Shown one piece after another: positions 36,097 through 47,477 of a DNA stretch of 64,000 bases. Position 1 is the first letter of the stretch. Each line of letters starts with the position of its first letter. The position numbers and the translations under genes were made by a program. The stretch spans positions 1 to 64,000 of the forward strand of contig CAMTIM010000022.1 in the NCBI GenBank assembly GCA_947072565.1. Reading direction: 5' to 3'. The notes under the pieces were generated by a model, which saw only the letters and a program-made list of their open reading frames with translations, made no database searches and was not told the DNA's origin. The DNA comes from an uncultured Peptostreptococcaceae bacterium. GTDB taxonomy: Bacteria > Bacillota > Clostridia > Peptostreptococcales > Peptostreptococcaceae.

Positions 36097-36202
36097 AATA
36101 TGTATATTTTCTTAAAAAAGTGATAATAATTAAAATATAATCAAATTAAAATTATCTCCCCCAGATAAAAAAAACTACAGTCTCCCCACTGTAGTTTTTT
36201 AT
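36097..36202 (+). repeat. Duplicated non-coding element, copy A (possible small RNA)
   Basis: Aligns end to end with 37162-37274. The first 42 bases (beginning AATATGTATATT and containing AAAAAAGTGATAATA) differ at only four positions. A variable stretch follows, then a small hairpin with a CUCCCCC loop (TATCTCCCCCAGATA), and a terminator hairpin CTACAG/CTGTAG with a TCTCCCCA loop and T6 (36174-36200). On the minus strand the last hairpin also terminates the VanY-like gene. Plus-strand reading suggests a small RNA with two C-rich loops; expression is untested. Confidence 0.65.
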
Positions 36203-36234
36203 TGCAAAATGTTATATATTAATTTTTTTATTAT

Positions 36235-36978
36235 CTATTTACTTTCATTTAAATACTCTTCTAATGTAATTCCTTTTTTGTTTATTTCTGTTGCTACTTG
36301 TTTACCAACATATCTTAAATGCCACGGTTCATATGCATACCCTGTTATATCTTGTTTTCCTTTTGGATATCTAATTATAAATCCATATTCACTTATGTTT
36401 TTTAATAACCATCTATGCGCATTTGTATTTTCAAAACCTTCGTCTAAACTTGCATAATCAGAAGATAATATATCTATAGCTAGTCCTGTTTGATGTTCAC
36501 TAGTTCCAGGTTGTGCCATATATTTATTTGTTTGTATTTCACCTGATTTTCTTATGTTATTTTTGTATAAATTTTTCTGATACTTGTAAGACCTATATCC
36601 AGAAACTCCACGTAAATTTATATTTTCACTGGTAGCCTTATTAAATAGATTTTCTATCTGTACTGCTACATCTTTACTTAAATACTTATTACTAGAATTT
36701 GATCTTAAAAATTTTATATTTGGAATTACTAAGTCCTTTGGATAAAATTTTTCATCTACTTTGTTTTTTCTATTAACTAATACCATATATTTATTATCTA
36801 TGCTTGTATGCTTAATTGGCTTAGCATCTAAGTTACTAACTGTAGCTTTAGATACACTTAAAGTACCAATCAATAATATAGATAATAGTATTAATATTGC
36901 AGTAATCAACACCGCAGCCTTTTTCTTCATCTTCTTCTTTCTCTTTCTAACTTGTTTTCTTGCCGATAAACTACTCAT
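36235..36978 (-). CDS. VanY-type D-alanyl-D-alanine carboxypeptidase (peptidase M15B)
   Basis: 247 residues from ATG 36978, chosen because AGGAG lies 7-8 bases upstream. A very basic N-terminus (RKQVRKRKKKMKKK) precedes one membrane helix (about 21-43), so the enzyme is anchored with its domain outside. The M15 zinc site is complete: SGYRSYKYQ (about 131), SEHQTGLAIDI with the His and Asp ligands (about 160-170) and EPWHLRY with the last His (about 222). It trims the terminal D-Ala of peptidoglycan peptides. No van resistance genes (vanH/A/X-like) are nearby, so this is probably housekeeping. Confidence 0.92.
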   Translation of the reverse strand: MSSLSARKQVRKRKKKMKKKAAVLITAILILLSILLIGTLSVSKATVSNLDAKPIKHTSIDNKYMVLVNRKNKVDEKFYPKDLVIPNIKFLRSNSSNKYLSKDVAVQIENLFNKATSENINLRGVSGYRSYKYQKNLYKNNIRKSGEIQTNKYMAQPGTSEHQTGLAIDILSSDYASLDEGFENTNAHRWLLKNISEYGFIIRYPKGKQDITGYAYEPWHLRYVGKQVATEINKKGITLEEYLNESK

Positions 36979-37106
36979 AAATTTCAACTCCTTTAACAAG
37001 AATTTATATTAGTATTATTTCAACCATTTATATCATCGTTGTTATATCTAAAATTAATATTATCTATGATAAAATTATTATTTTTTATAAATTATACCTT
37101 TAACTT

Positions 37107-37134
37107 ATTATATATGTCTAAAATATAAAGTCAA
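37107..37134 (-). promoter_or_regulatory. Promoter of the VanY-type carboxypeptidase gene
   Basis: On the minus strand TTGACT (37129-37134), a 16-base spacer and TATAAT (37107-37112), with a leader of about 120 bases to the start at 36978. It sits next to copy B of the duplicated element, as the promoter at 36045 sits next to copy A. Confidence 0.72.
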
Positions 37135-37161
37135 CTTAATATTTTATGTGTTTTTTTTAAA

Positions 37162-37274
37162 AATATGTATATTATCGCAAAAAAGTGATAATACTTAAAA
37201 TATGAACGGATAAAACAACCTATCTCCCCTAAGATATAAAAAACCTACAGTTCCCCCAACTGTAGGTTTTTTAT
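37162..37274 (+). repeat. Duplicated non-coding element, copy B (possible small RNA)
   Basis: Second copy of the element at 36097-36202, same orientation, 1,065 bases away. It keeps the 42-base head, a TATCTCCCCTAAGATA hairpin, and a terminator hairpin CCTACAGTT/AACTGTAGG with a CCCCC loop and a T6 tail (37243-37272). The two hairpin stems have different bases but still pair, which suggests the structure rather than the exact sequence is kept. On the minus strand the hairpin would end any transcript from the decayed gene at 37318. Confidence 0.65.
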
Positions 37275-37313
37275 ATAAATTTAATTTATTTTTAAAATCA
37301 CATATTATTTACA

Positions 37314-38060
37314 CTTTATCCATGCAAATTCATAAGGCAATAATCTTATCTCATTATCAACTTCACTATTAGTTAATATATTTATTCCTTTTAAGTTACA
37401 TTTAACTATTTTAGGTTCGTGTGTAACATTTGTAATGGATATTATTTTTTAATCTTCATTCTTACGCTCTAATGCAAATACTTACTTTCCAAAATCAAGA
37501 GCTACTATCTTTTTATAGTAGTTCACATATATCATTATACTCTAGTTTTTCTCTATTTATATGTCTATTTATTCCCTACTCCTTTATAATAATTTTTTGA
37601 ACCTAGTAATGAATGATAATATATCAGTAGTCTAAATTAATACTGTGAAGTGTTTTATATTTATATCTACCTGATCTACAATAATATTGTCCATGCAGTT
37701 TTAACTTTCTTTTTTCATTTATACTCATGTATAATAGGTGATGTTCTAGGTCTTACGACTTTTAAATCATCAAAATTCTCGTCTCTTTTTATAAAATATT
37801 CTTTATACTTTTCATCTCCACTTAGATACCCCTTAAACTACTTGCTACTTTTAGAAATATGATTTGCAACAAAATAAAACATTAAACTATACTAATTAGA
37901 AAAATTTTTTATAGTTTCCTATTCACCAAATTTTTTATCTATCTCCACCTAATCCACAACAGAGAATCCATCATCTGAAGTATACTCAAATATTTGGAAT
38001 ATATGAACATCAGATATAACATTACCTACTTCATAAGCTATATTAACAGTTTAAAACGAA
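37314..38060 (-). pseudogene. Decayed GH13 sucrose-phosphorylase-like gene
   Basis: No intact frame exists, but minus-strand translation gives successive pieces of a sucrose-phosphorylase-type protein. From 38050 leftward: DVHI, then FEYTSDDGFSVVD; LMFYFVANHISKSSK; FKGYLSGDEKYKEYFIKRDE; VVRPRTSPIIHEYK. Then, after an internal deletion, VFALERKNED, KIISITNVTHEPKIVKC and LLPYEFAWIKCK to the end. Stops and frameshifts separate them. The fragment is about 750 bases against roughly 1.5 kb or more for an intact gene; the start is missing too. The family is clear from these motifs; exact substrate is not. Confidence 0.85.
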
Positions 38061-46872: not shown

Positions 46873-46992
46873 AGAGCATTAACATAAACCAGTTAACACT
46901 CTTATCTAATAAGACAAATTTATGCAACTGGCTAACTTAAAGAAGTCCCTATAGCTTTGCGTCACCGGATCACTCCGGGTTTGCTAATTTAA
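46873..46992 (-). ncRNA. GEMM-I cyclic-dinucleotide riboswitch with terminator expression platform
   Basis: On the minus strand the aptamer runs from about 46992 to 46915: AGCAAACC, a CCGGA-GTGA-TCCGG hairpin with a GNRA loop, TGACGCAAAGCTATAGGG, then GTTAGCCAGTTGC. These are the GEMM-I core elements. After it an 11-bp stem, AGAGTGTTAAC/GTTAATGCTCT (46873-46902), followed by TTTTATTTTT forms a terminator. The aptamer segment CCAGTT can pair with AACTGG inside the terminator, giving a plausible switch. It controls the chemoreceptor starting at 46770. The position equal to G20 of the Vibrio Vc2 aptamer appears to be A. Confidence 0.88.
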
Positions 46993-47019
46993 TTTAATTT
47001 TTATTTAAACATACATTTT

Positions 47020-47194: not shown

Positions 47195-47477
47195 AAATTT
47201 TAAATAATAATCCATTGATAAGGGATAGTAGTTAAGTTCAGATTCATAGCAGAGAGCTAGGGACGGTGAAAGCCTAGCGTGATGGAATTTAGTGAATGGG
47301 CCTTAGAGGAGTAAAGGGAAATTCTTAAGAAAAGTACCAGATATCGTGGTCTGCGCGTTATAGCGGATAGAGTATAGTAGTACTCGAATTTTTGAGTGGC
47401 ATGTTTATATATAGTGCAATTTAGGTGGTATCGCGGATAATAACTCCGTCCTATTTATTTAGGACGGAGTTTTTTTA
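47195..47477 (+). ncRNA. T-box leader upstream of trpP
   Basis: Stem I carries AGTA (about 47227), AGAGAGCTAGGGACGG and GGTGAAAGCC (the AG bulge and distal loop), then GAATGGGCC, in which TGG (47297-47299) is the likely tryptophan specifier. The T-box core AGGTGGTATCGCGG lies at 47423-47436, followed by the terminator AACTCCGTCCT/AGGACGGAGTT (47442-47471) with a T7 tail. Uncharged tRNA would favour readthrough into the transporter. The base after TGG in the T-box is T, which predicts a tRNA with discriminator A; bacterial tRNA-Trp usually has G. Confidence 0.9.

Follow-up and report, generated by a model that had tools for sequence, protein, structure and literature searches.

Two similar elements in the window

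The window, i.e. the whole stretch of 64,000 nucleotides that was analyzed, contained two similar elements, copy A (36097-36202) and copy B (37162-37274), flanked by a VanY-type gene and a gene for a 438-aa protein. No Pfam domain was found in the latter protein, leaving the zinc-ribbon/GIY-YIG label of the preliminary description without Pfam support. The two copies aligned on the plus strand with 81% identity; the same orientation, and heads of 42 bases differing at four positions, had been described previously and were both reproduced. A BLAST search of the whole genome with copy B retrieved copy A (81% identity, E = 3.9e-19), and the copies were mutual best matches in the genome. The pattern CTCCCC-N(10-40)-CCCC was found three times in the window (0.05 expected by shuffling), and two of the three were copies A and B. 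The features of the copies were as follows.

36101-36106, plus strand: -35 box TGTATA of copy A, invariant in homologues
36122-36130, plus strand: extended -10 region of copy A, GATAATAAT (conserved G, then AATAAT), after a spacer of 18 bp
36137-36203, plus strand: predicted small RNA of copy A, ~67 nt, with a putative start ~7 nt past the -10 region
36153-36163, plus strand: near-invariant C-rich stretch of copy A, TATCTCCCCCA, predicted pairing seed
36170-36200, plus strand: terminator hairpin of copy A, with CTCCCC loop and T-run
37166-37171, plus strand: -35 box TGTATA of copy B
37187-37195, plus strand: extended -10 region of copy B, GATAATACT, after a spacer of 18 bp
37202-37275, plus strand: predicted small RNA of copy B, ~74 nt, with a putative start
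37219-37229, plus strand: C-rich stretch of copy B, CCTATCTCCCC, predicted pairing seed
37235-37275, plus strand: terminator hairpin of copy B, with CCCCC loop and T-run

Next to copy B (37504-37999, minus strand), an alpha-amylase-family (GH13) gene persisted as remnants spread over several frames; R. sedimentorum retained a longer open frame of this gene. Elsewhere in the window, a c-di-GMP-I riboswitch (46920-46995, minus strand) and a T-box leader (47206-47456, plus strand) were arranged divergently, ~210 bp apart.

Distribution among Peptostreptococcaceae

A covariance-model search of the genome and its relatives, as proposed in the preliminary description, was performed with a model built from 18 copies (R1), and matches to the family were found in 45 of 71 Peptostreptococcaceae genomes; BLAST, too, retrieved the element from many Peptostreptococcaceae. 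Forty-four of the 54 genomes with spoIVA, which encodes the spore-coat ATPase, were positive versus none of the 16 without this gene; the 45th positive genome, G065, was 75% complete. The association between spoIVA and the RNA (Fisher p = 2e-9) was uncorrected for kinship, and this value overstates independence because the genomes are related. Among ~120 genomes from other families of the order, no R1 element was found; a match in Lutispora from the collection scan was located inside coding sequence and was rejected as chance. The element was conserved across five genera, and the species carrying it included Romboutsia sedimentorum, R. timonensis, R. lituseburensis, Peptostreptococcaceae bacterium VA2, and Clostridioides difficile. 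The two C. difficile loci, in genome G017, were C1:851131-851250 (minus strand) and C1:3220565-3220671 (plus strand). The pattern TGTATA-N(18,19)-ATAMT-N(15,45)-CTCCCC gave 146 matches in the genomes with spoIVA versus 10 for the reversed pattern (the former count takes in G065, and some pattern matches were chance occurrences inside coding sequence), and 0 matches in the 16 genomes without spoIVA. As judged from these searches, the family is present in nearly all sampled spore-forming Peptostreptococcaceae and in no sampled non-sporulating relative. This restriction, the large number of members, and the forespore-type promoter in the head (see below) go beyond what had been described previously.

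The neighboring genes varied. In another Romboutsia group they were an antiporter gene and folD; R. lituseburensis had genes of the CAAX protease-like and XRE types, and C. difficile had genes for an ABC transporter and a BglG-type antiterminator (names by inspection). The main alternative in the preliminary description was a cis-regulatory module, an operator or leader, shared by the leftward genes next to the copies, and each copy in the window indeed precedes such a gene. Since the neighbors differed in every genus, and the conserved promoter is directed away from the leftward genes, this alternative was contradicted and is considered very improbable.

Paralogues and subfamilies

At least seven members were found in this genome: C22:36101, C22:37166, C22:274062 (minus strand), C27:65442, C29:93150, C36:95390, and C44:124666. 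With a model of the body only (R2), which holds no promoter information, two of the copies other than A and B were retrieved from this genome (E = 7.7e-9 and 1e-5), and the promoter was present at both. Weaker matches were members with other bodies and an unchanged layout; examples of subfamilies were TTTAACTCAATCTCCCCCAATTTGAGCTTTCGTTCCCCCAACGAAAGCTC, GAGAGCGGAAATTATATATCTCTCCCCC..., GGGATATTTACTCCCCCAAATA..., and CAAACATACTCAATCTCCCCC..., the last of which was present in most sampled genera.

Several candidates showed particular arrangements. Tandem clusters of two to three C-rich small RNA candidates of different subfamilies were found at L097 827-1321 (minus), L101 861-1396 (minus), L106 895-1125 (plus), L103 962-1190 (minus), and L109 798-1045 (plus); in a second type within these clusters, TGTATA was replaced by a conserved upstream stretch, TTTCTCTTAAAGAATA...CTCCTGTTAATATTC. 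In two genera (L131 1501-1901, minus; L100 653-1014, plus), a 5S rRNA gene was directly followed by a member of one subfamily. In another subfamily (L134 1442-1580, plus; L094 951-1065, plus; L248, L104, and L257), the first hairpin was long (AGGAGATATTTACTCCCCCAAATAATAAATATCTCCT) and bore a C-run in its loop, the second C-run followed this hairpin, and the terminator loop had no C-run.

Probable promoter of the forespore type

The homologues shared a single layout: TGTATA, 17-18 bases, nATAmT, a short leader often containing CGGA, CCTATCTCCCCC, a hairpin whose loop holds a C-run, and a T-run. The conserved head corresponded to a promoter and the first few transcribed bases, an assignment based on the distance between TGTATA and nATAmT, which varied by no more than one base among all genera. 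A consensus drawn from 91 distinct sites read TGTATA-N14-G-nnn-ATAmT; the G three bases 5' of the -10 hexamer was found in 82 of the 91, without being required by the pattern. The possibility of Fur or Rex boxes in the head was assessed by eye and dropped because the constant spacing of 17-18 bp and the two boxes fit a promoter. When loci were matched by body only, 24 of 33 carried the promoter versus 1.6-2.2% in the background, the loci themselves having been retrieved with a model that contained the promoter.

In these genomes, the forespore gene spoVT carried TG(T/C)ATA-N14-GGTAAAAAT, in the same register as the small RNA promoters, and a SASP gene also carried TGTATA. The motif was found at none of 12 promoters of spoIVA, which we take to be a sigmaE-dependent (SigE-type) gene. 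These comparisons suggested that the promoter of the family is probably of the forespore type (sigmaF/sigmaG). The consensus sequences of SigF and SigG overlap in C. difficile (PMC7438776), so that sigmaF and sigmaG are indistinguishable from the motif here.

A different reading is that the RNAs are C-rich antisense regulators of vegetative or starving cells, with the spore-former pattern reflecting shared ancestry. The -10 region is close to that of sigmaA, and the genomes without spoIVA belonged to few genera (g4, g6, g16, g19, and g23), so that the correlation with sporulation rests on few independent losses. TGTATA, the G before the -10 region, and the 17-18 bp spacing nevertheless matched forespore promoters and not TTGACA, and subfamilies with unrelated bodies shared the promoter; expression outside the forespore is therefore regarded as improbable.

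Terminator hairpin and exposed C-runs

The terminator hairpin covaried among relatives: 98.5% of pair cells were kept, four of 11 pairs were changed on both sides, and the covariation score was 0.285 versus 0.10 in shuffles. The earlier observation that the stems altered while still paired was thus confirmed for the terminator stem. Of the two C-loop hairpins proposed at the same time, the terminator hairpin stood, whereas the first (UAUCU-CCCC-AGAUA) was not conserved: it was unpaired in the consensus fold, relatives had none or another one, and at this site the sequence CCUAUCUCCCCC, not the fold, was conserved. A small conserved peptide was ruled out, as neither start codon nor frame was conserved.

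Could the copies be merely two similar intrinsic terminators? Given their symmetry, the hairpins could act as terminators in both directions. However, a promoter-like head and the CCUAUCUCCCCC stretch, both needless for terminators, were kept across genera, and non-sporulators lacked the element, making this the least probable reading of all, hardly credible; the remark in the preliminary description that terminators alone leave the conserved head unexplained was borne out, the head being a promoter. The preferred reading there, paralogous small RNAs with C-rich loops that might pair with G-rich ribosome-binding sites, gained support from the conservation over five genera, the varied neighborhoods, the covariation of the terminator, the promoter at a fixed distance, and the further paralogues. 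On this comparative evidence, the elements are very probably small RNA genes.

The predicted RNAs (64 distinct; median ~71 nt) contained two C-runs of at least four in 58 cases; the terminator loop held a C-run in 52, and no G-run occurred in any of the 64. The C-runs were 97% unpaired, compared with 90% in shuffled controls; the latter value indicates that much of their exposure stems from the lack of G. Exposed runs of this kind would suit pairing with ribosome-binding sites rich in G. Conservation in subfamily I extended to the CCUAU next to the C-run and to the A following it.

Comparison with known small RNAs

No Rfam family reached its threshold at the elements. Judged against Rfam, the family appears to be previously uncatalogued, and the C. 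difficile copies may already stand in published tables of start sites. C-rich single-stranded regions of FsrA and RoxS/RsaE pair with Shine-Dalgarno sequences, and the regulators of these RNAs differ from those of the family here. The covariance model of FsrA (RF02273) gave a weak, partial match limited to positions 45-83 (3' half), with 19.5 bits versus a gathering score of 80; there was no match to RoxS/RsaE at the elements. LhrC1-5, which carry C-rich motifs, resemble the family here by description: several paralogues, exposed C-runs, and a promoter and terminator of their own were found. LhrC1-5 of Listeria monocytogenes are a multicopy family directed at ribosome-binding regions (PMC4132741); they differ in their induction by envelope stress via LisRK, not by a sporulation promoter.

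CsfG of Bacillus subtilis is expressed in the forespore under sigmaF and sigmaG, is conserved in spore formers, and keeps CU-rich stretches both in loops and between its helices (PMC9147052, PMC3574147). The family here was similar in its conservation in spore formers and in its CU-rich stretches, likewise conserved in loops and between helices; its predicted sigmaF/sigmaG motif would fit transcription of the CsfG type, as far as sequence alone can tell. The differences were as follows: CsfG is 136 nt in B. subtilis (PMC3574147) versus ~70 nt for the family; the bodies were diverse and the copies numbered at least seven in this genome; no Rfam model matched; and csfG is located between ylbG and ylbH, whereas the neighbors here were different and variable. 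Rfam scans for weak matches listed neither CsfG nor ylbH, and csfG was compared by description. The family may work like CsfG and LhrC, an analogy from description that claims membership in neither.

SpoY (nc020) of C. difficile prefers a G-rich motif resembling a ribosome-binding site and blocks the spo0A site and its translation, and hence provides a precedent for blocking at such a motif (PMC10267692). It is derived from a 5'UTR, shares its start with CDIF630_00827, and is highest in exponential growth (PMC10267692); it was rejected as the C. difficile homologue because the element of G017 faces a convergent gene and has no co-directional gene downstream. SpoZ, which is 528 nt and activated by RgaR (PMC10602386), was also rejected.

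Predicted pairing and proposed mode of action

Of 55 genes in the window, 13 had GGGG, and eight GGGGG, just before the start. The prediction of pairing with ribosome-binding sites, also suggested in the preliminary description, showed that the seed of copy A paired at <-12 kcal/mol with 30% of these sites versus 2% of random 40-mers. Since G-rich sites are common in this genome, complementarity alone names no targets. The best predicted pairing was with the ribosome-binding site of sigH (-21.1 kcal/mol), whose UGGGGGAGAU is perfectly complementary to the near-invariant AUCUCCCCCA. This site was unusually conserved in Peptostreptococcaceae, in most sampled genera (sigH loci L172-L189), and was also kept in G039, a genome without spoIVA and without the RNA. 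Co-evolution of seed and site, suggested by g12, in which both were changed, is not claimed because G039 keeps the site without the RNA. The sigH mRNA is the strongest candidate target found.

The explanation that we favor, with fair confidence, is that these are paralogous RNAs expressed in the forespore, where they pair with ribosome-binding sites rich in G and so prevent translation. The gene family, its terminator, the promoter motif, the limitation to spore formers, and the exposed C-runs are evident from sequence; we infer their transcription, timing, pairing, targets, and outcome as follows. Each copy would be a free-standing gene for an RNA of ~70 nt, in a family of at least seven in the genome, transcribed by the forespore RNA polymerase (sigmaF and/or sigmaG) from TGTATA-17/18-nATAmT and ended at the C-loop terminator hairpin. 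The RNA would keep two runs of C4-6 unpaired, one in the CCUAUCUCCCCC-type stretch (single-stranded or weakly paired) and one in the terminator loop; by pairing with ribosome-binding sites of the form GGGG(G)A(G), these would keep selected mRNAs from being translated in the developing forespore, that of the early sporulation sigma factor SigH being the foremost candidate. As to mode, antisense action at ribosome-binding sites is reasonably likely.

Alternatively, the forespore RNAs may titrate, acting as sponges for other RNAs or binding Hfq or a different RNA-binding protein while the spore matures. The bodies of the RNAs otherwise differ, and the C-runs that recur in 58 of the 64 could bind protein or RNA; the targets named for the family are candidates, and CsfG of Bacillus, which has no known mRNA target (PMC9147052), co-purifies with Hfq (PMC3574147). 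Conservation of CCUAU and A beside the C-run in subfamily I, more than a bare C-run needs, and the strong predicted pairing of ribosome-binding regions argue against titration, which we regard as rather unlikely.

A broader version of antisense action is put forward tentatively: a fleet of partly redundant forespore RNAs may jointly shut translation from G-rich ribosome-binding sites, with sigH as the conserved core target. If so, the forespore would use RNA to switch off the vegetative and early sporulation programme within its own compartment ahead of dormancy, and the sites concerned would be those of ~15-25% of genes here. Post-transcriptional control in the developing spore is poorly known, and its best known RNA, CsfG, is without an identified target (PMC9147052); a many-member family common to C. 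difficile and Romboutsia, with a predicted promoter, seed, and candidate target sigH, makes forespore control testable in organisms with sigF and sigG mutants.

Over the whole genome, sites of GGGGAGATA were only slightly commoner than those of the reversed control (24 versus 16), and included the ribosome-binding sites of sigH and of spoIIIAD-like, flagellar hook-like, and MATE-type transporter genes (names by inspection, except sigH).
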